Shown in pieces: positions 2,432 to 54,090 of a stretch of DNA of 62,424 nucleotides; position 1 is the first letter of the stretch; the number at the start of each line of letters is the position of its first letter. Under the pieces are notes generated by a model. The model was not told where the DNA came from. It searched no databases and worked only from the letters and a program-made list of their open reading frames with translations. The position numbers and the translations under genes were made by a program. The DNA comes from a virus, in IMG/VR virus record IMGVR_UViG_3300023210_000033, positions 1 to 62,424 of that record. One strand, written 5' to 3'.

Positions 2432-2995
2432 ATGAAATCACCGTTTGCATTTATCGTAAAACCTTTAAAAGGTAAACGATATAACAACACAAAAGAAATA
2501 TCCGGATTGGATATTATCATAAGCACATCTGAAGAAGATTTTAAATTTTCTAATAGAGAAGCAGAAGTAGTTGAACTCCCCCTTGGATATAAAGGTCCGA
2601 TAAAGGTGGGAGATTTTTTGTTAGTACACCATAATGTTTTTAAGTTTTATAACGATATGTACGGAAAACAAAGAAGTGGTAAAAGCTACTTTAAAGATGA
2701 TTTGTTTTTTATAGAAGACGAACAGTTCTATGCGTACCATAACGGTACACAATGGAATGCAGTTGACAGATATTGTTTTGTGCAACCTGCACCCGTAGAG
2801 GATTCATATATTTACAAACCTTTAAGTGAAGAGCCTTTGGTTGGTATAATGAAGTATCCTAATGAGTATCTAAAATCCAAAGGGGTTGTAGAAGGGACAA
2901 AGGTTTGTTATAAACCAAATAGTGAATATGAGTTTACCGTAAGTGATGAAAAACTTTACAGAATGTTTGACCACCAAATAGTTATGTCAATATGA
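2432..2995 (+). CDS. Conserved hypothetical protein of the fibre cassette (copy 1)
   Basis: 187 aa, no recognised family. Homologue of 61739-62302: shared blocks include RRYNNTKE-like, STSEEDF.F.NREA, LLVHHNVFKFYND and LYRM.DHQI. The HHNVF..Y block and the many aromatic residues suggest a small folded beta protein, perhaps GroES-like or chaperone-like in shape, but this is a guess. It overlaps the following 2OG-oxygenase-like gene by four bases (ATGA). Confidence 0.7.
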   Translation: MKSPFAFIVKPLKGKRYNNTKEISGLDIIISTSEEDFKFSNREAEVVELPLGYKGPIKVGDFLLVHHNVFKFYNDMYGKQRSGKSYFKDDLFFIEDEQFYAYHNGTQWNAVDRYCFVQPAPVEDSYIYKPLSEEPLVGIMKYPNEYLKSKGVVEGTKVCYKPNSEYEFTVSDEKLYRMFDHQIVMSI

Positions 2996-3117
2996 ATATA
3001 GGAATATTTGAAGATGTAATACAAGGGGTAGATAAATATGTTGATGACATATTAAACGAAGGCTTTCAAGATATACAGATAGGAGAGGATTTATTTAAGA
3101 ATGTAAATGCAAGAGGT
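2991..3117 (+). repeat. Exact 127-bp repeat, internal copy
   Basis: Identical to 62298-62424. Sequence on the left of the copies differs from the next base (A at 2990, C at 62297). Confidence 0.95.
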
Positions 3118-3459
3118 ATTGACCAACTTGTTGTGTTTTTAAATGAACATTATCCTATGTATAAAGCAGATTTAAACTTTGTAAGAAGGTCACCCTTGAA
3201 TCAAGAAGAACCAAATTTCATTCATACAGATGATATGATGGGAGATTTAACTGCGATACTTTACTTAAACACAGAGCATCCTGAAACCGATGGGACTACT
3301 CTGTATTACAAAGGAGAGAAAATGTGTATCTTGAGGTCAAGATATAATAGGCTTGTTGTTTTTCCATCACACCTTTATCATTCAAGAAATATTTATGATA
3401 ATTTTGGTTATGCAAAAAAAGCAAGACTAATACAGGTTTGTTTTTTAAAAAAGAAATAA
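2992..3459 (+). CDS. 2OG-Fe(II) oxygenase-like protein
   Basis: 155 aa. The pattern fits the double-stranded beta-helix 2-oxoglutarate/Fe(II) dioxygenase superfamily: H78-x-D80 (FIHTDD), a distal histidine in FPSHLYHSR (H127 or H130) and a basic residue about 15 positions later (R145 in ARLIQVCFL) that could bind 2-oxoglutarate. Family members hydroxylate protein side chains, nucleobases or small molecules. The gene lies between the fibre cassette and a SET-domain gene, with overlapping stop/start codons on both sides, so a structural-protein side chain is a plausible target (inference). Its first 126 bases are repeated exactly at the right end of the window. Confidence 0.7.
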   Translation: MNIGIFEDVIQGVDKYVDDILNEGFQDIQIGEDLFKNVNARGIDQLVVFLNEHYPMYKADLNFVRRSPLNQEEPNFIHTDDMMGDLTAILYLNTEHPETDGTTLYYKGEKMCILRSRYNRLVVFPSHLYHSRNIYDNFGYAKKARLIQVCFLKKK

Positions 3460-4198: not shown

Positions 4199-6413
4199 AC
4201 TGTATAGAACATTAGAGGACTATATCCCTAAGAACGTACTTAGCAATAAAAACAAAGCTAAGTCGTGGGAGTATGGATATGACTCTAAGTATAATGTAGT
4301 TGTTATATCCAAGACAGGACAAGTGGGTTCTGTAATAAATATAAGTGGCTTAGCAATAGCGCTACCTAAAGAACCTAAAGAGTGTCTTCAAAGACACTCT
4401 AAAAAAGAACAACAATTTTGGGAAAGAACAGACTTACCTAAAGACTTAGATAGAATACAATCTATATTCCAATGGAATGAAATGTCATCTGATTTTAAAA
4501 ACAGATGGGTTGATTACATTGAGCGTGAGTTTGATTATAGGGAAGACGGTATGTTCTTTATGAACAACGGAAAGCCAACTTATATTACAGGCTCTCATTA
4601 TATGTATCTTCAATGGACAAGCATTGACGTAGGATACCCCGACTACAGGGAAGCAAACAGAATATTTTTTATTTATTGGGAGGCTTGTAAAGCTGATAAG
4701 AGAAGTTTCGGAATGACCTATCTAAAAATTAGGCGTTCAGGATTTTCATTTATGTCTTCAGCAGAATGTGTAAACACAGGTACTCTCGCTAAAGATGCAA
4801 GGGTAGGTATACTATCTAAGACAGGTAGTGATGCAAAGAAAATGTTTACAGATAAAGTAGTTCCTATAAATAACAGGTTACCTTTTTTCTTTAAACCTAT
4901 AATGGACGGTATGGACAGACCTAAAACTGAATTAGCTTTTAGAGTTCCTGCTTCTAAGATAACCAAGAAGAATATGTACGAGGTGGAGCAAGATGTTCTT
5001 GAAGGTCTTGATACAACTATTGATTGGAAAAACACAGATGACAACAGTTATGATGGTGAGAAACTATTATTGTTAGTGCACGATGAAAGTGGTAAATGGA
5101 TTAAGCCTAATAATATTTTAAATAATTGGCGTGTTACCAAAACCTGTTTGAGATTAGGTAGTAAGATTATAGGTAAATGTATGATGGGTTCTACTTCAAA
5201 TGCTCTTAGTAAGGGTGGTAGTAATTTCAAGAAACTATTTGAAGACTCAAGTGTAACATCTCGTAATGCAAACGGACAAACAAAAAGTGGGATGTATAAT
5301 CTTTTTATTCCTATGGAATGGAATATGGAAGGATTCATTGATAGATACGGGATGCCTGTATTCAGGAAAACAGATGAGCCTGTGTTAGGCGTTGATAATG
5401 AAATGATAGAGAATGGTGCTATAGACTATTGGGAAGCTGAGGTTGATTCATTAAAGAATGATGCTGATGCTTTGAATGAGTTCTATAGGCAATTCCCAAG
5501 AACAGAGTCTCACGCATTTAGAGATGAGAGCAAACAGTCCTTATTTAATCTAACCAAGATATATCAACAAGTTGATTTCAATGATACGTTGATATCAGAA
5601 CATCATATTACAAGAGGTTCTTTTAGTTGGTTAAATGGAATAAAAGATACCAAGGTAATTTTTAGCCCTAATAAAAGCGGAAGGTTCTTGGTTAGTTGGA
5701 CTCCTGAAAAGAATTTAACTAATAGAATTATAACTAAGAATGGAACTAAATATCCGGGTAACGAACACATAGGCTCGTTCGGATGTGATAGCTACGATAT
5801 AAGTGGTGTAGTTGGTGGCGGTGGTTCTAATGGAGCATTACACGGACTAACAAAGTTTAATATGGATAACGCTCCAAGTAACGAGTTTTTCTTAGAATAT
5901 ATTGCTCGACCACAAACGGCAGAGTTATTTTTCGAAGATGTATTAATGGCTTGTGTGTTCTATGGTATGCCTTTATTATGTGAGAATAATAAACCAAGGC
6001 TGCTATACCATTTTAAACACAGAGGATATAGAGGGTTTAGTATGAATAGACCTGATAAGACTTACAATAAATTATCAAAGACAGAACGTGAGTTGGGAGG
6101 GATACCCAATACAAGCGAATCAGTAAAACAAGCACACGCTTCTGCAATAGAATCTTACATAGAACAATATGTAGGAATGAACATAGATGAAGATTTAGAA
6201 GACATAGGAACGATGCCTTTTTCGAGGACCTTGGAGGATTGGGCAAAGTTCGATATAAGTAACAGAACAAAGTTTGATGCAAGTATATCGTCAGGTTTGG
6301 CTATAATGGCGTGTCAGAAACACCTATACCAACCTGAAAAAAAACAATCAAAAATAAACATTAACTTTGCAAGGTATAATAACAAGGGAACAATAAGCGA
6401 AATTATTCAATGA
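4176..6413 (+). CDS. terL: Terminase large subunit (DNA packaging ATPase/nuclease)
   Basis: 745 aa. This is the motor that packages DNA through the portal and cuts it. N-terminal ATPase: the Walker A position reads KIRRSGFSFMSSA (about residues 184-196), lacking the usual GK(S/T). Walker B is LLLLVHDESGKW (about 298-309), with D-E as expected. The C-terminal RNase H-like nuclease starts around FGCDSYDISGV (about 538-548), giving the first metal-binding Asp. The only start that keeps the full N-terminus is TTG at 4176, 23 bases inside the previous gene, because an in-frame stop lies at 4134. One copy of the 16-bp palindrome lies inside the gene (4382-4397), encoding CLQRH. The portal ATG overlaps the stop by four bases. 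Confidence 0.85.
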   Translation: MQKEGQNKLYRTLEDYIPKNVLSNKNKAKSWEYGYDSKYNVVVISKTGQVGSVINISGLAIALPKEPKECLQRHSKKEQQFWERTDLPKDLDRIQSIFQWNEMSSDFKNRWVDYIEREFDYREDGMFFMNNGKPTYITGSHYMYLQWTSIDVGYPDYREANRIFFIYWEACKADKRSFGMTYLKIRRSGFSFMSSAECVNTGTLAKDARVGILSKTGSDAKKMFTDKVVPINNRLPFFFKPIMDGMDRPKTELAFRVPASKITKKNMYEVEQDVLEGLDTTIDWKNTDDNSYDGEKLLLLVHDESGKWIKPNNILNNWRVTKTCLRLGSKIIGKCMMGSTSNALSKGGSNFKKLFEDSSVTSRNANGQTKSGMYNLFIPMEWNMEGFIDRYGMPVFRKTDEPVLGVDNEMIENGAIDYWEAEVDSLKNDADALNEFYRQFPRTESHAFRDESKQSLFNLTKIYQQVDFNDTLISEHHITRGSFSWLNGIKDTKVIFSPNKSGRFLVSWTPEKNLTNRIITKNGTKYPGNEHIGSFGCDSYDISGVVGGGGSNGALHGLTKFNMDNAPSNEFFLEYIARPQTAELFFEDVLMACVFYGMPLLCENNKPRLLYHFKHRGYRGFSMNRPDKTYNKLSKTERELGGIPNTSESVKQAHASAIESYIEQYVGMNIDEDLEDIGTMPFSRTLEDWAKFDISNRTKFDASISSGLAIMACQKHLYQPEKKQSKININFARYNNKGTISEIIQ
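4382..4397. repeat. 16-bp palindrome copy (TTCAAA centre)
   Basis: GTGTC-TTCAAA-GACAC within terL, encoding CLQRH. Confidence 0.9.
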
Positions 6414-33391: not shown

Positions 33392-34108
33392 TTACAAATC
33401 CATTAGGCAGTTGATGGCGGTATGTCCACCAAGAACAACGCCACAACCTATTGCTTGTTTCTTAAAATTTTTAGCATACGCTGCTGCGTATGACTTTGCA
33501 TCTACTCCACAACCAACCTGCATCCCAAAGATTCTAAACTTCTTACCTACGTTCCACTCACAATAAGCCTGTGTGTGGATGTGACCTTGCACAGTAGACA
33601 TCATATCATTCTTAGATTTAGTACGAGCAGTTCCTCCTTCTCCGTGTACGTACTGAACGTTATCGTATACTATCTGCTCTACCCAATTCCAATCTGTACC
33701 AAGAACATCGTTGTAAGATTTAATCCAACGGCTTGGTATCTGAGAATCAAAAGCCTTACGCATTATAATTCTATCGTGATTTCCAATTGTAACGTCAGCC
33801 TTTGGAAAAGACTTAGCCCATTTCTTTACTACCTTTATTGCAATATCTAATTCATCGCTGCCTCCCATCCCATCAGGGTCGGTAGCATGAAATGAGGCGT
33901 AGTGATTATCAATTATATCTCCAATGAATATAACTTGATTACAATTATACTTAGCGTAAGTATCTATACAGAATTCTAAGTATCCATCTAACGTAAACGG
34001 AGCGTGAATATCTCCTATAACGAGTATCCTACGCTCCGCTTTGTTTATGTGTTCGTATGCTTTCCTTTTGTTTCCCTTAAGTCTTGGTCTGAAGTCATTA
34101 TATTTCAT
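33392..34108 (-). CDS. Calcineurin-like metallophosphoesterase
   Basis: 238 aa. All dimetal motifs are present: GDIH (33-36 region), GDIID, GNHD, and a C-terminal GHIH, with VHG between. Such phage enzymes act on nucleotides, RNA ends or DNA; the family includes T4 and lambda phosphatases and SbcD/Mre11-type nucleases. The short size and lack of a capping domain favour a phosphatase or phosphodiesterase. The 5' end overlaps the neighbouring 64-aa gene by eleven bases. Confidence 0.85.
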   Translation of the reverse strand: MKYNDFRPRLKGNKRKAYEHINKAERRILVIGDIHAPFTLDGYLEFCIDTYAKYNCNQVIFIGDIIDNHYASFHATDPDGMGGSDELDIAIKVVKKWAKSFPKADVTIGNHDRIIMRKAFDSQIPSRWIKSYNDVLGTDWNWVEQIVYDNVQYVHGEGGTARTKSKNDMMSTVQGHIHTQAYCEWNVGKKFRIFGMQVGCGVDAKSYAAAYAKNFKKQAIGCGVVLGGHTAINCLMDL

Positions 34109-43927: not shown

Positions 43928-43955
43928 GCAAGAGTGTCCTTGAAGACACCCTTGC
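43928..43955 (-). terminator. Terminator of the GAT-II/GGCT gene, built on a palindrome copy
   Basis: GCAAG and CTTGC flank the palindrome (43934-43949). On the minus strand it is followed by TTTTATT. Confidence 0.7.
43934..43949. repeat. 16-bp palindrome copy (CTTGAA centre)
   Basis: Core of the terminator after the GAT-II/GGCT gene. Confidence 0.9.
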
Positions 43956-43964
43956 ATTGTGGAT

Positions 43965-45041
43965 TTAGTCTTGAAATTTTAAGACCTCATCCTCTTTGAA
44001 CCAACCACCACAGGAGGAACAATAATAGTTTGAAAACCCATCGAACGTTACATCGTTGTAACAATCTACACAGGTAGGTGTGTCATTAGTTGGGAAGTGT
44101 TCGTCATCCCATCCTATATCTATCGCTTCGTGATTAATATCTTCATCAACATCTTCGACAATGCCTCTATCGAATAAGGTATTCTCGTATCGTGCTGACT
44201 GCTCATACGATTCAACAAATGGTTTGTTTGAATTACTTTCTTTTGGATTGAAGTAAATCCAACACGTTAAAGTCTTTCCGTTGTTCATCTTCACCGGTAT
44301 CTCTTCACGCTTGTACCATCTTGGATGACCCTCAAGCATATCTAAACTCTTGAACGTGGTATCGCTAACCTTAAACACATCAACCTTTACGTTATGTCCT
44401 AACCCTTTTTCTTTTAATAAGAAAGGAAGTCCATCAACAACCAAAGGATATTTGTCTTGAGTTTTACCTGCACCAATATGCTTTGATGAAGTTAGGTAAG
44501 AGTAGTAGTTACTGAAACCTTTCTTTAAAGTTCCATACACCGCAACCAAGTTGTCTTGAAGTACGTTGGCTTTTGAATACCAAATGCCATCACGATAAGT
44601 ATACAGGTTACGATTGTAGATTTGGAATGAACGAGTCCGGGTGTTGATGCTCACAAAACGTGAGTCATACTTTTCAAGTTCAGTCTTCCAAGTGTTACGT
44701 GCTACGTTACCAAGCGCCTTGGCAAGTACCTTACTATCACACTCGTCAGCAGTTCCAAGTCCCTTGATAGTTCCATTCTGCATTAGAAGTTCGTCATTCT
44801 TTACACCGCATCTGAATGGGTGAGTGTTGGACAGTCCAACCTTACCGACAGTTGCGTATCTGAAATGCGCAATGAATGGTCGCTTAGTTAATAGTTGTTT
44901 GTACTCGTTTGATTTGTGGTATGTTACCTCGAACGTGTCGAGCCATACAATTCCTAATCCGTGAGGATTAATTCTCGCTGAAGTCTTAGCGATTTCATTA
45001 GACATTACATTGTCTTTCTGCTTAATAATAATTACACACAT
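43965..45041 (-). CDS. GAT-II amidotransferase / GGCT / zinc-ribbon fusion protein
   Basis: 358 aa from the ATG at 45041, chosen because it gives MCVIIIK with Cys2, the class II (Ntn) glutamine amidotransferase nucleophile after Met removal; a longer reading to 45107 runs through a palindrome. Domain 1 (1-155): IAHFRYATVG (57-66), HPFRCG (74-79), MQNGTI (87-92), as in GAT-II. Domain 2 (165-255): gamma-glutamylcyclotransferase/AIG2-like, VYGTLKKG (168-175) and LDMLEGHPRWYKR (233-245); the usual Gly-Glu acid is V-D (220-221), so activity needs testing. Domain 3: zinc ribbon C324-x2-C327...C341-x2-C344. Near an amidoligase-like gene it suggests amide-bond chemistry on peptides. Confidence 0.8.
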   Translation of the reverse strand: MCVIIIKQKDNVMSNEIAKTSARINPHGLGIVWLDTFEVTYHKSNEYKQLLTKRPFIAHFRYATVGKVGLSNTHPFRCGVKNDELLMQNGTIKGLGTADECDSKVLAKALGNVARNTWKTELEKYDSRFVSINTRTRSFQIYNRNLYTYRDGIWYSKANVLQDNLVAVYGTLKKGFSNYYSYLTSSKHIGAGKTQDKYPLVVDGLPFLLKEKGLGHNVKVDVFKVSDTTFKSLDMLEGHPRWYKREEIPVKMNNGKTLTCWIYFNPKESNSNKPFVESYEQSARYENTLFDRGIVEDVDEDINHEAIDIGWDDEHFPTNDTPTCVDCYNDVTFDGFSNYYCSSCGGWFKEDEVLKFQD

Positions 45042-45061
45042 AGTGATTTGATTTGCGAGGG

Positions 45062-45077
45062 GTGTCTTTGAAGACAC
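45062..45077. repeat. 16-bp palindrome copy (TTTGAA centre)
   Basis: In the leader of the GAT-II/GGCT gene, between promoter and ATG, so transcribed. Confidence 0.9.
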
Positions 45078-45093
45078 CGACCTCTGATTTACA

Positions 45094-45141
45094 ATTGATT
45101 TATACAAAGGTAAGACTAAATTTAGACATAACCTAATTTTA
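45094..45141 (-). promoter_or_regulatory. Promoter segment with -7 box TACCTTTG (copy 2 of a duplicated segment)
   Basis: The -7 box is at 45105-45112, leading the GAT-II/GGCT gene. The segment is about 80% like 43475-43521, and on its upstream side can be read as IKLGYV-stop, the end of a gene paralogous to 43502. Confidence 0.55.
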
Positions 45142-45143
45142 TT

Positions 45144-45401
45144 TTACCTTTCTTCGTTTGATGCGTACTCATCTGCGTACTTACAGGCTTCGTTGTACGT
45201 GTTCCCTGCCTGTTCTTCTACGTAGTCAACAAACTTATTGAACCACATTACATTTTCTCTGAGTTGCCCTATTGCATCTTCAAGATTGTCTATACTTGCC
45301 TGACAAGAGTCATTGTCCGGATTCCATTCTTCGCTTTGTAGCATTTCGAAATCTGTGATTGCCATTTTAATTTTACTGATTACTGATGTTGAATTTTCCA
45401 T
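45144..45401 (-). CDS. Acidic hypothetical protein
   Basis: 85 aa, acidic helical protein (many Glu/Asp, CQASIDNLEDAIGQLRENVM), no motif. Part of the accessory module between the GAT-II/GGCT gene and the 178-aa gene. Confidence 0.55.
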   Translation of the reverse strand: MENSTSVISKIKMAITDFEMLQSEEWNPDNDSCQASIDNLEDAIGQLRENVMWFNKFVDYVEEQAGNTYNEACKYADEYASNEER

Positions 45402-45420
45402 TGTGATTGTATTTAATTGA

Positions 45421-45957
45421 TTAATAAATTTTGATTGTTCCTTCGTTTAATTTTTCTGCGTACTCGTTAGCCTTCTTGCGTGACCAAGTCATATATCTGT
45501 TTGGATTCTCGTCAAACAATTCCTCGCTGACATCATCCCAACAAGATTCAACAACCACATATCGCTCAGGATTCTCTTGGTTATCTATCAGTAACTTGTA
45601 CTCGCCATAGTTCATCGTCTCTTCGATTGTGTAGTACGTGTCACCCTCATTGAATGGATACGATTCGTACCATACCTCATCTAATAAATAGTTCTTGCTT
45701 TTGCATATGTATGCAATGAAATTATCCATATGCTTGTGGTCTGTAAACTCCTTGGTCAATGTCCAAAGACCTTTGCCTTTTCCGTAGCTTACCTGCCCTG
45801 TCTCAAATTGAATTGTTGCTTTCATACTCTGTCCTTTTAATTTGTTTAATAATTTTGTTAGTCTTCTGTCTGTGGTCTTGTCCCACATCCTTGCTTTGTC
45901 TGTTTCAACACCTCTAATGAGATGGTATAGTTCGTCTTTAGTGAAAGTGAATTCCAT
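45421..45957 (-). CDS. Hypothetical protein of the accessory module
   Basis: 178 aa, no recognised family. Helical N-terminus (FTKDELYHLIRGVETDKARM), then a beta-rich, aromatic, acidic part (VWYESYPFNEGDTYY, MNYGEYKLLIDNQ) and a C-terminal NRYMTWSRKKANEYAEKL helix. It sits within the amidoligase module, so it could be its substrate or partner, but the sequence does not tell. Confidence 0.6.
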   Translation of the reverse strand: MEFTFTKDELYHLIRGVETDKARMWDKTTDRRLTKLLNKLKGQSMKATIQFETGQVSYGKGKGLWTLTKEFTDHKHMDNFIAYICKSKNYLLDEVWYESYPFNEGDTYYTIEETMNYGEYKLLIDNQENPERYVVVESCWDDVSEELFDENPNRYMTWSRKKANEYAEKLNEGTIKIY

Positions 45958-45961
45958 AGTT

Positions 45962-46123
45962 CTATTTTGATTTTACTGCGGTTAACTTGTCTCGTTTTAT
46001 CCAAGGATATTCATTGATGTTATCATTGTAGATGCGGTCAATGGCTTCCCACTTGGAGTGAGCCGGGATAACTTTGATTAGCTTCCCGGCATACCTTACC
46101 TTGTAATAGTTCTTGCGCTCCAT
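45962..46123 (-). CDS. Small basic protein
   Basis: 53 aa, starting MERKNYYKVRYAGKLIKVIP. Basic, mixed strands and helix, spaced four bases from the 178-aa gene. Too short for a length-filtered search but reads well as a gene. Confidence 0.6.
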   Translation of the reverse strand: MERKNYYKVRYAGKLIKVIPAHSKWEAIDRIYNDNINEYPWIKRDKLTAVKSK

Positions 46124-46124
46124 A

Positions 46125-46337
46125 TTATTTCTTGAATAGTTCGTGGTAAAACAACACGCTTGACACGTACGTTAAGAACATAAGAAACAAGCACACGATT
46201 ACATAGTAAACGTTGCTGACTACTGACGAGTCAAGGTCTCCGTACATTGCGTACATTAGTCTTGCCGCACACGTGTAAACGAATAAGGCTACTGCTACTG
46301 ATAATAATTTTCCTGTGATTTTGATAATTGATTTCAT
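46125..46337 (-). CDS. Small two-span membrane protein
   Basis: 70 aa from the ATG at 46337; the longer reading to 46409 passes through a palindrome copy. Two hydrophobic spans: LLSVAVALFVYTCAARLMYA and VYYVIVCLFLMFLTYVSSVL. It would sit in the inner membrane. It lies between genes of the amidoligase module, so it may anchor or affect the cell envelope. Confidence 0.6.
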   Translation of the reverse strand: MKSIIKITGKLLSVAVALFVYTCAARLMYAMYGDLDSSVVSNVYYVIVCLFLMFLTYVSSVLFYHELFKK

Positions 46338-46344
46338 TTTATTA

Positions 46345-46380
46345 TGGTTTTGTGGAGTGTCCTTAAAGACACTCCGGTTA
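46345..46380. repeat. Extended 36-bp repeat unit with palindrome (46357-46372, CTTAAA centre)
   Basis: Differs at only a few central bases from 47778-47813; includes TGGTTTTGTGGA before and CTCCGGTT after the palindrome. Confidence 0.85.
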
Positions 46381-46390
46381 TTAATTAAGA

Positions 46391-46702
46391 TTATATTTTG
46401 TGCGCCCAAGAGCCATTCTTGTTAATGATTGTTTCTACATCTTCAACATCTGTCCATCGGATATTAACTGCGGTAACATCTTCAAAGGCTACCTTTTGAA
46501 ATTGAAATCCACAAGCATCTGCGATTATGTTCTTTACTCCAAAGTCAATTACTTCAACCCAATCAAGGTTATCTGTATCGAATCCCTCGGTCATATTAAA
46601 TGCTTCAGCATCTGTGGTGATTAGAATTTCATCTACTCTTTTGTTGTTTGCAAAAATTTCTTTGATGTTGTCCTGTCCAAAAATTAATTCGTTTGTATTC
46701 AT
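46391..46702 (-). CDS. Acidic hypothetical protein
   Basis: 103 aa, beta/alpha, acidic (DEILITTDAEAFNMTEGF, WTDVEDVETIINKNGSWAHK). No recognised family. It is flanked on both sides by palindrome hairpins (46357 and 46778), so it may be a single-gene unit. Confidence 0.55.
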   Translation of the reverse strand: MNTNELIFGQDNIKEIFANNKRVDEILITTDAEAFNMTEGFDTDNLDWVEVIDFGVKNIIADACGFQFQKVAFEDVTAVNIRWTDVEDVETIINKNGSWAHKI

Positions 46703-46777
46703 TTTAATTTGATTTTATTGTTCCTGTTTCATCCTTTTGGAATCATCAGCCGGAATACTCATTCCGATACAGGAGGA

Positions 46778-46793
46778 GTGTCCTCGAGGACAC
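46778..46793. repeat. 16-bp palindrome copy (CTCGAG centre, perfect palindrome)
   Basis: Between the amidoligase-like gene's stop and the 103-aa gene; with flanking GGA/TCC the stem is longer. Confidence 0.9.
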
Positions 46794-46809
46794 TCCCTGC
46801 GTTAGAGAA

Positions 46810-47769
46810 TCATCTCCATCCGTTTCTGCGTAGTTCGTTATCCCACAGACTCTGCTGAGAGCGGTTAGGGTCAACCCATCTCACAACCGCTCTGTTAATC
46901 TTTCCGGTCTTCAAGTACTTCTGAAAGCCTTTTGCGATTGTCATAATCTCGTTGACCTTTTCCATATCATTATTGTACATTGACTTTACTACAGGCAAAC
47001 ACTTCTTAAGCAAAGCGTTATGGCTTCCGTTTGGATTGTTAATGCTGAAATCCAAAACGATGTAAAATAACTCGTATCGTCTCCACATCTGCTTTACAGA
47101 TTGGAATCTTGACACAAGGCGAAATTCAACAACATTACCTTTGATTTGTACCGCTTGGTATCTTGTGCCTCTGAAACCTGCATCCATCTGTAGATTAGCG
47201 TAGCAGTAAGTGTTTGTCAATCTCTTGCGAAATAATGAGTAGATGATTCCAACATTCTTGCGCATTGCATTCGCTATCTCTTCACCGGTCATCCCCTCTA
47301 CACCGATTGTAGTGTGACCACCACATCTGTGGTTACTTGGGCTAAATGCATCGTCAATCACTTTCGTAGCATCAAACATCAAAGAGAAAATTTTGTTTCT
47401 CCAATGTCCGGCAGGTAGCAAAGGAATGATGTTGGTTACCGCTTCATATCCACAAGATGAATCTCTTTCGAATCCTGCGAATAATGGATAAGGCTTTGTA
47501 GCACTTCTGTTGATGTTGTTTTTCTCAACTTCAAAACCGATAGTAAACTTGCTCATAAAATCACCATTCAAAACGCTGATTAGATTCTTGCGGTCAACTT
47601 TTTTTAGCTGAGCGATATCTGTATTCTTAGCACCTTTGTGCAATTCCTTGAATCCTCTGTTTTGTGTCGAATGGTATCCGTTGATAACTCCTCTTTCACG
47701 TGTATTGTAGGCATCATCATTGTTGTAGATGTCTTTGTATTGGATTCCTAATTCTGCATTTGTAGTCAT
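46810..47769 (-). CDS. Amidoligase-like (GS-fold COOH-NH2 ligase) protein
   Basis: 319 aa from the ATG at 47769 (MTTNAELG); a GTG at 47805 lies in a palindrome and is rejected. The pattern matches the amidoligase_2 family of glutamine-synthetase-fold ligases: FTIGFEVE (75-82), a DSSCGYEAVT block (103-112), CGGHTTIGVE (139-148) and RYQAVQIKGNVVEFR (193-207), then a Trp-rich helix MWRRYELFYIVLDF. The paired acidic residues and EFR would bind ATP and metal; such enzymes join a carboxylate to an amine, as in peptide or polyamine links. In the same direction as the GAT-II/GGCT gene; together they would form and cut amide bonds. Confidence 0.75.
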   Translation of the reverse strand: MTTNAELGIQYKDIYNNDDAYNTRERGVINGYHSTQNRGFKELHKGAKNTDIAQLKKVDRKNLISVLNGDFMSKFTIGFEVEKNNINRSATKPYPLFAGFERDSSCGYEAVTNIIPLLPAGHWRNKIFSLMFDATKVIDDAFSPSNHRCGGHTTIGVEGMTGEEIANAMRKNVGIIYSLFRKRLTNTYCYANLQMDAGFRGTRYQAVQIKGNVVEFRLVSRFQSVKQMWRRYELFYIVLDFSINNPNGSHNALLKKCLPVVKSMYNNDMEKVNEIMTIAKGFQKYLKTGKINRAVVRWVDPNRSQQSLWDNELRRNGWR

Positions 47770-47777
47770 AATTCCTG

Positions 47778-47813
47778 TGGTTTTGTGGAGTGTCTTCAAG
47801 GACACTCCGGTTT
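47778..47813. repeat. Extended 36-bp repeat unit with palindrome (47790-47805, TTCAAG centre)
   Basis: Between the 215-aa gene and the amidoligase-like gene; partner of 46345-46380. Confidence 0.85.
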
Positions 47814-47826
47814 AGTTTGATTTAAT

Positions 47827-48474
47827 TTAGCTTAATTGTCCGTTAATCATTGCAAGTACTTCCTGCACTTGTGCTTGAGTGTTTCTTGTAAATACTTCAC
47901 CATTTGCATCGATTCTCCAAGCGACATTGTCACCATTTGGATTCTTAAACGATAGTGTAATAATTGTCTCAACTCGCTCTGTAGTATTCTCTACTGCTTC
48001 AGTAATTGCTTCCTGCTCTGCCTCGGCAATCTGTTCCTCTGTAGCATCTTCACTATGCTCTAACGAATCAAGGTCAATGCCTCTGCTGAATTCTAAAAGA
48101 CCGGCAATACTTCTCTGTGCATCATCGCCATTGGCATCACACATTTCGTTGAATGCATCTACAATTCTTTGGTCAAGGTTACCTGCCTTGATGACCTTGT
48201 AGAAGAATGATTTTTGCCATCCGAATACCTTTAGACCGAAATCTTTTTTGCTCCATTCGATTCCCTCTTCAGCAAATAACTCTTTCCCCTCTGTAGATTC
48301 AAAGAATGTCACCGCCTCGTTTACGAGTTTAGACATCTTCATTGTGTGACCGAATTTGCTCTTCTGAGCATTCTTAATTGAACGCTGAATGCGTTTGATG
48401 TCGGTTAAGTTTAATTGCGCTTTCACCTGTGGTAGGTTTAAGAAGGCTGTTTCGATTGATAATAAATTGCTCAT
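47827..48474 (-). CDS. Hypothetical protein, first gene of the leftward operon
   Basis: 215 aa. N-terminal half is basic and helical (LTDIKRIQRSIKNAQKSKFG, FGLKVFGWQKSFFYKVIKAG) and could bind DNA; a strongly acidic linker (about 120-165) follows; the C-terminus is a small beta domain (TLSFKNPNGDNVAWRIDANG). No family recognised. It is nearest the divergent control region and is probably expressed first from the promoter at 48556. Confidence 0.6.
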   Translation of the reverse strand: MSNLLSIETAFLNLPQVKAQLNLTDIKRIQRSIKNAQKSKFGHTMKMSKLVNEAVTFFESTEGKELFAEEGIEWSKKDFGLKVFGWQKSFFYKVIKAGNLDQRIVDAFNEMCDANGDDAQRSIAGLLEFSRGIDLDSLEHSEDATEEQIAEAEQEAITEAVENTTERVETIITLSFKNPNGDNVAWRIDANGEVFTRNTQAQVQEVLAMINGQLS

Positions 48475-49361: not shown

Positions 49362-49397
49362 TTAGAGAGAGGGAGTGATTACCCTCTCTTTTTTTTG
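49362..49397. terminator. Bidirectional terminator
   Basis: AGAGAGGG / CCCTCTCT stem with an eight-base loop, followed by eight T on the plus strand. Serves the 62-aa gene, and lies just after the 3' end of the tRNA. Confidence 0.8.
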
Positions 49398-49471
49398 TAC
49401 CCCCTTCAGGACTCGAACCTGAAACCTACACATTAGAAGTGTGTTGCTCTATCCAATTGAGCTAAGAGGGC
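49398..49471 (-). tRNA. tRNA-Arg (anticodon UCU)
   Basis: 74-base cloverleaf on the minus strand: acceptor GCCCTCT with AGGGGGT, D arm GCTC/GAGC, anticodon stem ACACA/TGTGT with loop CTTCTAA, T arm CAGG-TTCGAGT-CCTG, discriminator A, CCA not encoded. It reads AGA/AGG codons; AGA is the main Arg codon of the phage, so it probably supports late translation. Confidence 0.9.
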
Positions 49472-49755: not shown

Positions 49756-51360
49756 ATGAATGAAATAGGGTACTCACCAAAGAATTTAAAGTTTGACGAT
49801 GAAGGTCGTAACAAACTTATTACCGGAATTAGCACGATTGCTAAAGCAGTTAAGTCAACACTCGGTCCATCCGGACAGACTGTGCTAATAGAATCACCTC
49901 ATCACACTCACGGAATCACAGTTACTAAGGACGGAGTTACAGTCGCTAAGGCAGTAGACCTCTTAGACCCGACCGAGAACCTTGCGGTTCGGATGATGAA
50001 GGAATCGGCAGACAGAACTGCAGCATCTGCAGGAGACGGAACTACAACTGCTATAGTTTTAACTGAGGCTTTAGTAAAAGCAGGAATTGAAATGATAGGA
50101 GAAGATACCAATAAGACAGAAGTCTTGAGGGATATCGTAACTAAAACAAATGCAATCTGTGACAATCTAAAGAAGATGTCAAGGGCAGTTACTAAAAGTA
50201 AGTTAAAGGATGTGGCTACTATATCAGCTAACAACGACACAACCATTGGTAACATTATCTCGAAAGTATACAAGGACGTAGGCAAAAATGGCATCGTGAC
50301 TGTTGACCGTTCCCAAACTTCCGAAACATACTTCGAGACAACCAATGGGTTAAAAATAGATAGAGGTTATTCTTCTAACCTTTTTATCAATGACCAAAAG
50401 AAAGATGAGTGTGTCCTTGAAGACACTCTTGTAATGGTATCAGATGCAGAGATAAGTAATATACTACAGATTGAAAATATACTTAAACCTGTATTAGGAG
50501 ATAATAAGAAACTATTAATTATAGCACCGTGTTCGACTAATGTGATAAACACATTAGCTGCGAACGTAATGAAGAGGGGAATCAAAGTTTGTGCCATAAC
50601 CCCTCCTTCATTTGGATACAAGCAACACGAACTTATGCACGACATTGCAGTATCAGTTGGTGCAACATACTTTTCAGAAAAGACAGGAGATGACCTCAGC
50701 CTTATGACTATAGATGACTTAGGTAGTGCAGCTAAAGTTATAGTAGGAAAGAACTCAACGGTATTACTAAAAGAATCAAATGTAATTAGTGAAACCACAG
50801 AAGAGAGAGTTAATCAGTTATGGGATGCTCATAACAATGCAGTAAAGAAAGGTGATAAAGAATTTATCTTGTCAAGGATAGCTTCTCTTACAGGAGGGAT
50901 AGGAGTTATTTATGTAGGAGGTCAAACAGACTTAGAACAAAAAGAACTATACGATAGAGTAGACGATGCAGTATGCGCAGTACGCTCAGCACTTGAAGAA
51001 GGAATTCTTCCCGGTGGTGGATTGGCTCTTTACAAGGAAGCTACCTTCGTTGAAGATGCTAATGGTGGGGTTGCAGGAAAAATTTTAGCGAGAGCACTTC
51101 GTGCTCCTTTATTACAGATTTATGAAAACGCAGGTTTGAAGTTATCAGTAGATGAAGAACAAAAACTTATGTATGATGAAGGTACTGAAGGTATGAACGT
51201 TAAAACAGGAGAGTGGGGAGATATGTATAAGATGGGTGTTATTGACCCATTGAAAGTTACAAGGTCCGCATTACAGAATGCAGTATCAGTAGCAGTAACA
51301 ATTTTATCGACTAACGCTATTATAACAATGGCAAGAACATACGAGGAAAGCGGTGATTAA
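49756..51360 (+). CDS. groEL: Phage GroEL-type chaperonin
   Basis: 534 aa, close to the bacterial length of about 548 but without the GGM tail. Signatures present: TLGPSGQTV (35-43), TKDGVTVAK (57-65), AGDGTTTA (92-99), GGIGVIYVGG and RVDDAVCAVRSALEEGILPGGG (401-422), with D404 at the place of the ATPase Asp398. The place of Asp52 reads Glu (VLIES for VLDKS), a change that could alter ATP turnover. It folds proteins in a ring with GroES, probably large virion proteins here. A palindrome copy (50411-50426) lies inside, encoding CVLEDT. Confidence 0.95.
   Translation: MNEIGYSPKNLKFDDEGRNKLITGISTIAKAVKSTLGPSGQTVLIESPHHTHGITVTKDGVTVAKAVDLLDPTENLAVRMMKESADRTAASAGDGTTTAIVLTEALVKAGIEMIGEDTNKTEVLRDIVTKTNAICDNLKKMSRAVTKSKLKDVATISANNDTTIGNIISKVYKDVGKNGIVTVDRSQTSETYFETTNGLKIDRGYSSNLFINDQKKDECVLEDTLVMVSDAEISNILQIENILKPVLGDNKKLLIIAPCSTNVINTLAANVMKRGIKVCAITPPSFGYKQHELMHDIAVSVGATYFSEKTGDDLSLMTIDDLGSAAKVIVGKNSTVLLKESNVISETTEERVNQLWDAHNNAVKKGDKEFILSRIASLTGGIGVIYVGGQTDLEQKELYDRVDDAVCAVRSALEEGILPGGGLALYKEATFVEDANGGVAGKILARALRAPLLQIYENAGLKLSVDEEQKLMYDEGTEGMNVKTGEWGDMYKMGVIDPLKVTRSALQNAVSVAVTILSTNAIITMARTYEESGD
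50411..50426. repeat. 16-bp palindrome copy (CTTGAA centre)
   Basis: Inside groEL, encoding CVLEDT. Confidence 0.9.
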
Positions 51361-51430
51361 AAAAGAATGGCAATGGATGAGGGAGGACCATCCTTCATCT
51401 GTGGAGTCTCAAATAAAAAAAAGAAACACA

Positions 51431-51688
51431 ATGAAACCAATAGGTAAATATATTTTAATAAACCCAATTGATGAAGAGATGGAAACCAAGTCAGGTTTGT
51501 TGCTTTCAGCAGAAGACTCTAATCAGTTTAGATATAAAAAAGGAACGGTAGTTGTATCGGGAACAGATGTAATTAACATTACAGAAAAAGATACCATCTA
51601 CTATGACAGTCGTGCAGGTTACACTATGATGATAGGCTCTGAGTCTTATACAATCATCAAGGAAGCTGATGTCGTTGTTGTTTTATAA
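51431..51688 (+). CDS. groES: Phage GroES-type co-chaperonin
   Basis: 85 aa from the ATG at 51431 (MKPIGKYILINPIDEEMETK). It has the GroES pattern: KPIGKYILINP start, mobile-loop-like METKSGLLLS, then KKGTVVVSGT and an end AGYTMMIGSE... VVVL. It caps the chaperonin ring. An in-frame extension of 26 residues exists (GTG at 51353, inside groEL), but GroES proteins do not need it. The 3' end overlaps the convergent regulator gene by 32 bases. Confidence 0.85.
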   Translation: MKPIGKYILINPIDEEMETKSGLLLSAEDSNQFRYKKGTVVVSGTDVINITEKDTIYYDSRAGYTMMIGSESYTIIKEADVVVVL

Positions 51689-53510: not shown

Positions 53511-53693
53511 ATGAGTAGTTGGATGGGAGATATGAAAATGTATTTACTTAATGTAAGTACTCTTGCGATATCAATGTCGCATATAGATATGATATTAAAA
53601 ATTACTCTTCTTGGGTTATCTGTGGGATACACCGCTCAACGTTGGTACTTGTTAGATAAGGAGAGAAGAAAAAATAATGAGAAAGATAAATAA
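53511..53693 (+). CDS. Small one-span membrane protein, holin candidate
   Basis: 60 aa: short N-terminus, a hydrophobic span (IDMILKITLLGLSVGYTAQR), then a basic tail (DKERRKNNEKDK). Directly before, and overlapping by 17 bases, the amidase gene, so a holin or pinholin-like role is likely. Confidence 0.55.
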   Translation: MSSWMGDMKMYLLNVSTLAISMSHIDMILKITLLGLSVGYTAQRWYLLDKERRKNNEKDK

Positions 53694-54090
53694 AATTATC
53701 ATTCATTGCTCAGCAACGAGAGAGGGTCAAGACGTAAGTATTGAAACTATAAGAGGATGGCACGTTGATGGTAGAGGGTGGTCAGACATTGGATACCATT
53801 ACATAATAACTTTGGATGGATTAGCGAAAGTAGGTAGACCAATTGAAAGGTCGGGCGCTCATACAAAGGGACACAATTCAGATTCAATCGGTATCTGTTA
53901 TATTGGAGGAGTTGACCAAGACGTTAATCCTAAAGATACACGAAACGAAATGCAAAAGATAAGTCTTATCAATTTGCTTACAACATTAAAATCTATTTAC
54001 GGAGACGATGTAACTATACATGGTCATAGAGAATTTTCAGCAAAGGCGTGTCCGAGTTTTGATGCCGCTGAAGAATACAAAGGCATATGA
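53677..54090 (+). CDS. N-acetylmuramoyl-L-alanine amidase (endolysin)
   Basis: 137 aa, Amidase_2 family, T7-lysozyme size. Zinc ligands: HCSAT (H11 area), and near the C-terminus HGHREFSAKACPSFD with the zinc Cys. Also GWSDIGYHYIITLDG (about 34-48) with the Tyr/His pair of the family. It cuts the bond between MurNAc and L-Ala in the wall. No signal peptide, so it needs a holin; two candidates flank it (53511 and 54087, the latter in ATGA overlap). Confidence 0.9.
   Translation: MRKINKIIIHCSATREGQDVSIETIRGWHVDGRGWSDIGYHYIITLDGLAKVGRPIERSGAHTKGHNSDSIGICYIGGVDQDVNPKDTRNEMQKISLINLLTTLKSIYGDDVTIHGHREFSAKACPSFDAAEEYKGI

Follow-up and report, generated by a model that had tools for sequence, protein, structure and literature searches.

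The viral genome record IMGVR_UViG_3300023210_000033 of IMG/VR is predicted to encode, within a single gene run, a divergent glutamine synthetase (GS)-fold amidoligase and a single polypeptide that joins a class II glutamine amidotransferase (GAT-II) domain, a gamma-glutamylamine cyclotransferase (GGACT)-type domain and a C4 zinc ribbon. We analysed the whole record of 62,424 bases (the window), which also holds genes for terminase, portal, GroEL/GroES, helicase and exonuclease; the run with both enzymes occupies window positions 43,965-48,474, all on the minus strand. The interpretation that we favour, with confidence somewhat above even, is that the pair forms a condensed two-polypeptide module of amidoligase, GAT-II and gamma-glutamylcyclotransferase (GGCT) that would combine ATP-driven gamma-glutamyl amide formation with two activities that cleave such amides; cell-wall peptides or precursors of these are the most likely target. 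The family, fold, conserved residues and conserved pairing of the two proteins are supported by the evidence below.

46810..47769, minus strand: predicted GS-fold amidoligase of 319 aa, divergent and Amidoligase_2-like (motifs, alignment, AlphaFold 2 model, profile comparison)
43965..45041, minus strand: predicted GAT-II, GGACT-type gamma-glutamylamine cyclotransferase and C4 zinc ribbon in one chain of 358 aa (Pfam, alignment, model)

Counted from its ATG, the ligase carries the motifs GFEVEK (78-83), ERDSSCGYE (101-109), CGGH (149-152) and RY...VVEFR (203-217). These motifs, like those of the fusion protein below, had been named in an earlier sequence-only reading of this DNA, and all lie where it placed them, with correct gene coordinates. 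In an alignment of 78 near-complete sequences, E80, E82, D103, E109, H152, E215 and R217 are invariant; the alignment comprises the window and 77 of 80 candidates (loci L056, L082 and L088 were left out), and candidate lists here and below were pre-filtered for coverage, strand and near-duplicates. These seven positions are candidate site residues, presumably equivalent to the GS metal ligands. A Pfam scan of the ligase matched no family, its profile matched no PDB sequence, and Amidoligase_2 (PF12224) matched none of 78 family members at E 0.1, the few weak hits falling in unrelated families; a plain Pfam scan thus misses what the sequence-only reading saw. Used alone as a query against viral sequences, the ligase likewise found no relative; relatives were found with the alignment as query. 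Comparison by hhalign of the ligase profile with six annotated phage amidoligases gave, across 146 aligned columns, a probability of 90.9 and an E value of 1.2e-6; the blocks D-S...E, C/G-x-H and RY...EFR are in register. The fusion family compared with the same six as a control gave a probability of 0.2 and E 0.34.

The predicted fold points the same way. The AlphaFold 2 model of the ligase has a mean predicted local distance difference test score (pLDDT) of 94.6, and all 50 rows shown in a Foldseek search of the PDB are GS, gamma-glutamylmethylamide synthetase (GmaS) or YbdK chains. Searching the model with VIA returned 50 rows at Z 7.5-8.4, all of GS type, with gamma-glutamylcysteine synthetase and the YbdK pair among them; the best row has Z 8.4 with 172 residues aligned at a root-mean-square deviation (rmsd) of 3.6. 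Among the viral models of BFVD, the first four matches are close relatives without a name, followed by many named amidoligase. The weaker profile score is offset by this fold evidence and by the pairing described below, and the 319-aa protein is supported, on its modelled structure, as a GS-fold amidoligase of a divergent family that standard annotation calls hypothetical.

The fusion protein reads, from its ATG, MC at positions 1-2, then HFRYATVG, NGT, VYGTLKKG, LEGHP and CxxC...CxxC at 324/327/341/344, and divides into GAT-II (1-160), a GGACT-type cyclotransferase (163-285) and a C-terminal two-knuckle CxxC unit that we read as a putative zinc ribbon (324-345). Pfam matches GGACT (PF06094) at E 5e-23 and GATase_4 at E 1.7e-4, the latter with 21.1 bits, just under the cut-off of 23. 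Profile comparisons bear out the family assignments of the sequence-only reading: the links to annotated amidoligases and to GGACT stand, with Amidoligase_2 matching none of the 78 window-type ligases and GATase_4 staying below its cut-off. The fusion model (mean pLDDT 85.9; predicted template modelling score 0.67) has a low-confidence linker at 287-319. Its cyclotransferase domain superimposes on mouse and human GGACT crystal structures at Z 18.1-18.6 (rmsd 1.9-2.1, 121-123 residues aligned, 29-31% identity), the best match being 1vkb at Z 18.6, and its GAT-II domain resembles EgtC (Z 11.7-11.9) and Escherichia coli GlmS (Z 11.4-11.6), with the PurF glutaminase domain also similar. The models accordingly show the folds expected of the proposed classes, GS-type for the ligase and N-terminal nucleophile (GAT-II) plus GGACT for the fusion.

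Relatives of the fusion were gathered from the window, the phage records MW202828 and C75C1, one genome contig and viral-contig scans, giving 107 distinct sequences; because only the best 80 of 226 relatives in one scan and the best 80 of at least 202 in the other were kept, the sets lean to close relatives. In the 76 near-complete sequences aligned (the window and 75 of 78 candidates, without L016, L051 and L141), H59, R61, N89, G90, D102, Y169-L172, E237 and the four ribbon cysteines are invariant. Across the 107 less filtered rows, C2, H59, R61, N89, G90 and D102 are unchanged wherever the column is filled; C2 is Cys in 105/105 filled rows, E237 is kept in 103/104, and the ribbon cysteines in 101/102 (C324), 101/101 (C327), 100/102 (C341) and 99/100 (C344). 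The acidic/His/ExR site of the ligase and Cys2 of the fusion, whose loss from close homologues would have spoken against the assignment, are thus conserved, and the 358-aa protein is supported, with its predicted structure, as a single chain of GAT-II, GGACT and C4 ribbon with conserved catalytic residues.

The fusion protein matches 150 of 50,697 phage records; of the 40 matches listed, two (MW202828 and C75C1) span both domains. A cellular origin was considered and rejected: 11 of 395 Bacteroidota genomes match, ten with one domain and one with a full-length gene on a contig binned as Cytophagales, and none of 16 matching plasmid records covers over 80% of the query. Other architectures occur among the relatives. 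Locus L095 (9791-10912) has the order GAT-II, ribbon, GGACT; in L093, L014 and L015 GGACT is absent and GAT-II comes with Cys pairs, and L093 (3965-6120) also has a second, weaker ligase-like gene.

The GAT-II domain also bears on a glutamine-dependent amidation, in which it would supply ammonia with which the GS-fold ligase amidates the carboxylates of cell-wall peptides, GGACT clearing unwanted gamma-glutamyl amines; MurT/GatD and LtsA/AsnB are functional parallels. R61 and D102, presumably glutamine-binding positions as in GlmS, are kept in all filled rows, the likeness of the domain to GlmS and PurF as well as to EgtC agrees with such a role, and in Arthrobacter phage Salgado an amidoligase gene adjoins a GAT-domain gene. 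The ligase and GAT-II, however, lie on separate chains, with no evidence for an ammonia channel, and the phages Geobacillus GR1 and Bacillus 055SW001 carry an amidoligase gene near a separate GGCT gene with no annotated GAT-II in the stretch fetched. We regard this alternative as unlikely but credible.

Conservation of the ligase-fusion pair supports the two-protein module. A window-type ligase is present in the fetched DNA of 93 of the 107 fusion loci, on the same strand in 93/93 and upstream of the fusion in 92/93, with a median gap between the open frames of about 1.8 kb. The neighbourhood is kept as well: GroEL lies upstream of the module on the opposite strand in 76/76 loci where it was found (59 of the 60 loci with at least 5 kb of upstream DNA), and an exonuclease gene lies downstream in 65/65 loci where found. 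'Accessory block', the term of the sequence-only reading, is too weak for a pair held between divergent GroEL and exonuclease in this way. Because these phages are largely syntenic, the pairing in the 93 loci is one lineage's habit. A C75C1-like group supplies what the sequence comparisons support as an independent test: a canonical amidoligase is encoded upstream of the fusion in 11 of its 13 loci, and the two remaining loci have 1.2-1.5 kb of DNA on that side. This set includes repeats (about eight distinct loci by score), and C75C1 is one of the seeds of the profile used for it. The window-type ligase profile matches none of the 13 loci, the two ligase families do not find each other by hidden Markov model, and by organism tally C75C1 is not among the 87 phage records that match the window terminase, so that the pairing appears to recur in two phage groups that are unrelated. 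Profile comparison, predicted structures and this recurrence uphold the enzyme classes proposed from sequence and their link to the published amidoligase/GAT-II/GGCT gene groups. The hosts named for the 87 terminase matches are Flavobacterium, Cellulophaga, Tenacibaculum and Maribacter, and these matches, together with the Cytophagales-binned contig bearing the full-length fusion, make a Bacteroidota host likely.

The reactions, their substrate and their benefit to the phage we infer as follows. GS-fold ligases use ATP to activate carboxylates, GAT-II enzymes act by cleaving glutamine or gamma-glutamyl compounds, and GGACT forms 5-oxoproline by cyclising a gamma-glutamyl group whose alpha-amino end is free; the common theme of the three classes is the gamma-glutamyl amide bond. 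In the window, the carboxylate that the ligase activates with ATP would most likely be the gamma-carboxylate of glutamate or of a glutamyl peptide, which it would join to an amine as an amide or isopeptide. The GAT-II domain, with Cys2 as nucleophile, would hydrolyse glutamine or gamma-glutamyl-X to glutamate and ammonia or amine, and the GGACT domain, with Glu237 as acid/base, would release the amine and 5-oxoproline. The zinc ribbon would most likely bind a partner or position the substrate. During infection, the amide links of host cell-wall peptides or precursors may be rewritten so that cross-links or receptors are blocked, or lysis is prepared. Cell-wall peptides appear the most likely target because the separate-gene form of the module has been read in this way and because an exported-looking, weakly SLT (transglycosylase)-like family lies between ligase and fusion in 13/93 loci (for example, L103 4318-4836), its representative showing ES...GxLQIxP motifs.

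Several observations weigh against this interpretation. To act, GGACT needs a glutamyl residue whose alpha-amino group is free. In D-Glu within a stem peptide this group is blocked, so that a glutamyl group which the ligase has added is a more likely GGACT substrate than the D-Glu of the wall. The SLT match, scored for one representative, reaches 20.9 bits against a cut-off of 21.3, and no SLT-like gene lies between the two enzymes in the window itself. For the ligase, the E 1.2e-6 comparison does not include the GxExE block in its aligned part; a seven-row version of that comparison gave E 7e-12, a value that is inflated and not relied on because its seventh row, the second ligase-like gene of L093, was picked up with the window-type family and itself matches nothing in Pfam. 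Of the 183 matches that Foldseek gave for the ligase in the PDB, a single one has E <= 0.001, template modelling scores are near 0.3, and VIA rates Z scores near 8, the ligase's level, as common. Fourteen of the 107 fusion-family loci have no window-type ligase in the fetched DNA: 11 of these have less than 2 kb of upstream DNA (the contigs of two, L140 and L172, carry a ligase at their other end, as L065 and L074), C75C1 has its canonical ligase, and no ligase was found in L155 (2.7 kb upstream) or in L014 (3.6 kb upstream, GAT-II only). The pairing within one syntenic clade, finally, is not independent evidence.

The remaining genes of the run are small, and their presence among relatives varies.

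47827..48474, minus strand: 215-aa protein upstream of the ligase (Pfam and locus comparison)
46391..46702, minus strand: 103-aa acidic protein (locus comparison)
46125..46337, minus strand: 70-aa protein, two-span by hydropathy (clustering, hydropathy)
45962..46123, minus strand: 53-aa basic protein (clustering)
45421..45957, minus strand: 178-aa protein (clustering)
45144..45401, minus strand: 85-aa acidic protein (locus comparison)

The most constant is the 215-aa protein, found in 80 of the 81 loci with at least 1.8 kb of upstream DNA; its gene is upstream of the ligase on the same strand in 86/86 loci where found, at a distance of at most 300 bp in 79. It could be assigned to no convincing family, one relative was found among phage records, and it is possibly a regulator. 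Between the enzymes, the 53-aa family is the commonest small gene (53/93 loci by clustering, 48/93 by direct search), followed by the 178-aa family (25/93 and 19/93) and the two-span membrane family (20/93 and 5/93). The 85-aa protein was found in 7/93 loci and the 103-aa protein, which is probably not part of the module, in 4/93. The membrane and 178-aa proteins had been put forward as partners or substrates of the enzymes; by their clustering counts they are too irregular to be regular components and are ruled out as such. Their descriptions need adjustment as well, for the protein at 46125 is two-span by hydropathy alone and is basic (isoelectric point 9.0), and the 178-aa protein is only moderately acidic (isoelectric point 5.1).

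These counts also bear on the protein tagging that the sequence-only reading proposed, in which the ligase would add glutamate or peptides to amines of host or phage proteins as isopeptides and the fused eraser would trim them. Among solved structures, those nearest to the cyclotransferase domain are of GGACT, an enzyme that acts on gamma-glutamyl-epsilon-lysine, which suits such a role. Fold similarity gives no specificity, however, and no substrate candidate is always present between the genes, the best small family reaching the 53 loci given above; we consider tagging very unlikely.

A 16-bp palindrome, GTGTCNNNNNNGACAC, is present in 15 copies in the window, and near-matches number 35, both strands counted, against 2.3 expected in shuffles. 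Copies of GTGTCYTYRARGACAC start at window positions 4382, 11494, 24335, 32878, 35864, 39861, 41241, 42473, 43934, 45062, 46357, 46778, 47790, 48690 and 50411, so that ten of the 15 lie at 39.8-50.5 kb. Four stand beside genes of the module:

47790..47805: palindrome, 20 bp before the ligase start codon
46778..46793: palindrome, between the ligase gene and the 103-aa gene
46357..46372: palindrome, just before the membrane-protein gene
45062..45077: palindrome, 20 bp before the fusion-gene start codon

Across the 93 loci, a copy lies at most 120 bp upstream of 56/89 ligase genes and 54/93 fusion genes, compared with 213/4,600 random 130-bp stretches; for 50 of these 54 fusion genes, the distance from the beginning of the copy to the gene start is 35-39 bp. 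Loci L004-L175, counted with their overlaps, have about 0.42 copies per kb, which often stand directly ahead of start codons, and 76/92 loci have at least two copies; no copy was found in the fetched DNA of some relatives, such as L012, L093 and L114. The palindrome is likely a shared operator or leader hairpin, with a stoperator-like site another candidate. A more specific form of the module would make use of it: the ligase would cap an amine, for example the cross-linking amine of diaminopimelate, with gamma-glutamate, and one chain would uncap it both by hydrolysis (GAT-II) and by cyclisation (GGACT), co-regulated through this genome-wide palindrome. If so, the phage would hold a reversible switch over wall cross-linking; we think this doubtful.

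Elsewhere in the window, the phage GroEL and GroES genes (49756-51688, plus strand) run divergently from the module, and one tRNA-Arg (TCT) gene (49397-49471, minus strand) adjoins groEL. An Amidase_2-type endolysin candidate lies at 53677-54090 (plus strand), a calcineurin-like phosphoesterase at 33392-34108 (minus strand) and a 2-oxoglutarate-Fe(II) oxygenase-like protein, a weak match below the cut-off, at 2992-3459 (plus strand).

Pairs in which a ligase adds and a second enzyme removes a gamma-glutamyl group are familiar from EgtA/EgtC, BtrJ/BtrG and PuuA/PuuD; unlike the window's pair, these belong to cellular metabolic pathways and to other gene sets. A metabolic role for the window's pair, as an auxiliary unit recycling gamma-glutamyl amides or glutathione-like compounds in small-molecule nitrogen or redox metabolism, follows the published reading of a Planctomycetes phage whose genes include amidoligase, glutamine amidotransferase, glutathione synthase and GGCT, for which growth effects at the level of the phage are reported (PMC10945688). 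The portions consulted, however, do not assay the enzymes singly, and a ligase with two cleaving domains would be odd for scavenging; we find this role highly improbable.

The condensed module that we favour compares most directly with the 'peptidoglycan modification module' of podoviruses of the phiEco32, LUZ24 and RIO-1/PSA-HP1 type (Iyer 2009 and Hardies 2013, as represented in PMC5498523, PMC11945000 and PMC10580990). In the parts of these citing papers that we consulted, action of the separate genes on peptidoglycan is a prediction, and a paper citing Hardies reports that the module genes vary in domain organization and gene number. Like that module, the window groups amidoligase, GAT-II and GGCT among early or replication-side genes of a podovirus-like genome; unlike it, the window has one amidoligase, too divergent for Pfam, and carries GAT-II and GGCT on one chain with a zinc ribbon. 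No Pfam match to ATP-grasp or a further COOH-NH2 ligase was found among the 20 window proteins scanned, published modules varying in gene number. Separate nearby genes for GGCT, an Ntn (N-terminal nucleophile) hydrolase, a COOH-NH2 ligase, an amidoligase and ATP-grasp are found in a Vibrio 1.293 phage.

Two phage genomes are also close parallels. Podoviridae sp. ctfjg026 (MW202828) belongs to the same clade (terminase 77%, GroEL 60%, fusion 47%, ligase 40%), although its ligase (L002 14275-14997) carries an N-terminal extension of about 240 residues that has no Pfam match. C75C1 (OQ984151) encodes the same fusion (43% identity), which there too follows an amidoligase gene of the same strand; in contrast to the window, its ligase is a canonical Amidoligase_2 (E 3.5e-30), and fusions of its kind have no CxxC ribbon in 13/13 loci, one of them cut. 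The suggestion in the sequence-only reading that the single-chain fusion may be new holds to the extent that a GAT-II-GGCT chain is not described in the literature searched, in which Iyer 2009 and Hardies 2013 were represented by citing papers; the varied domain organization reported for the podovirus genes tempers it.

Predictions of the phage amidoligase module go back to 2009, and many phages carry it; the literature, as far as consulted, gives its function as a prediction and not enzyme by enzyme. As two conserved proteins for which no membrane spans are predicted, the ligase and the fusion offer a convenient minimal module to express and assay. The gene set itself was already known, and the window holds a condensed two-protein variant of the podovirus module, not a new system; apparently new relative to the literature consulted are its single-chain form, the wide distribution of that form through a large clade of phages and the accompanying divergent family of ligases.

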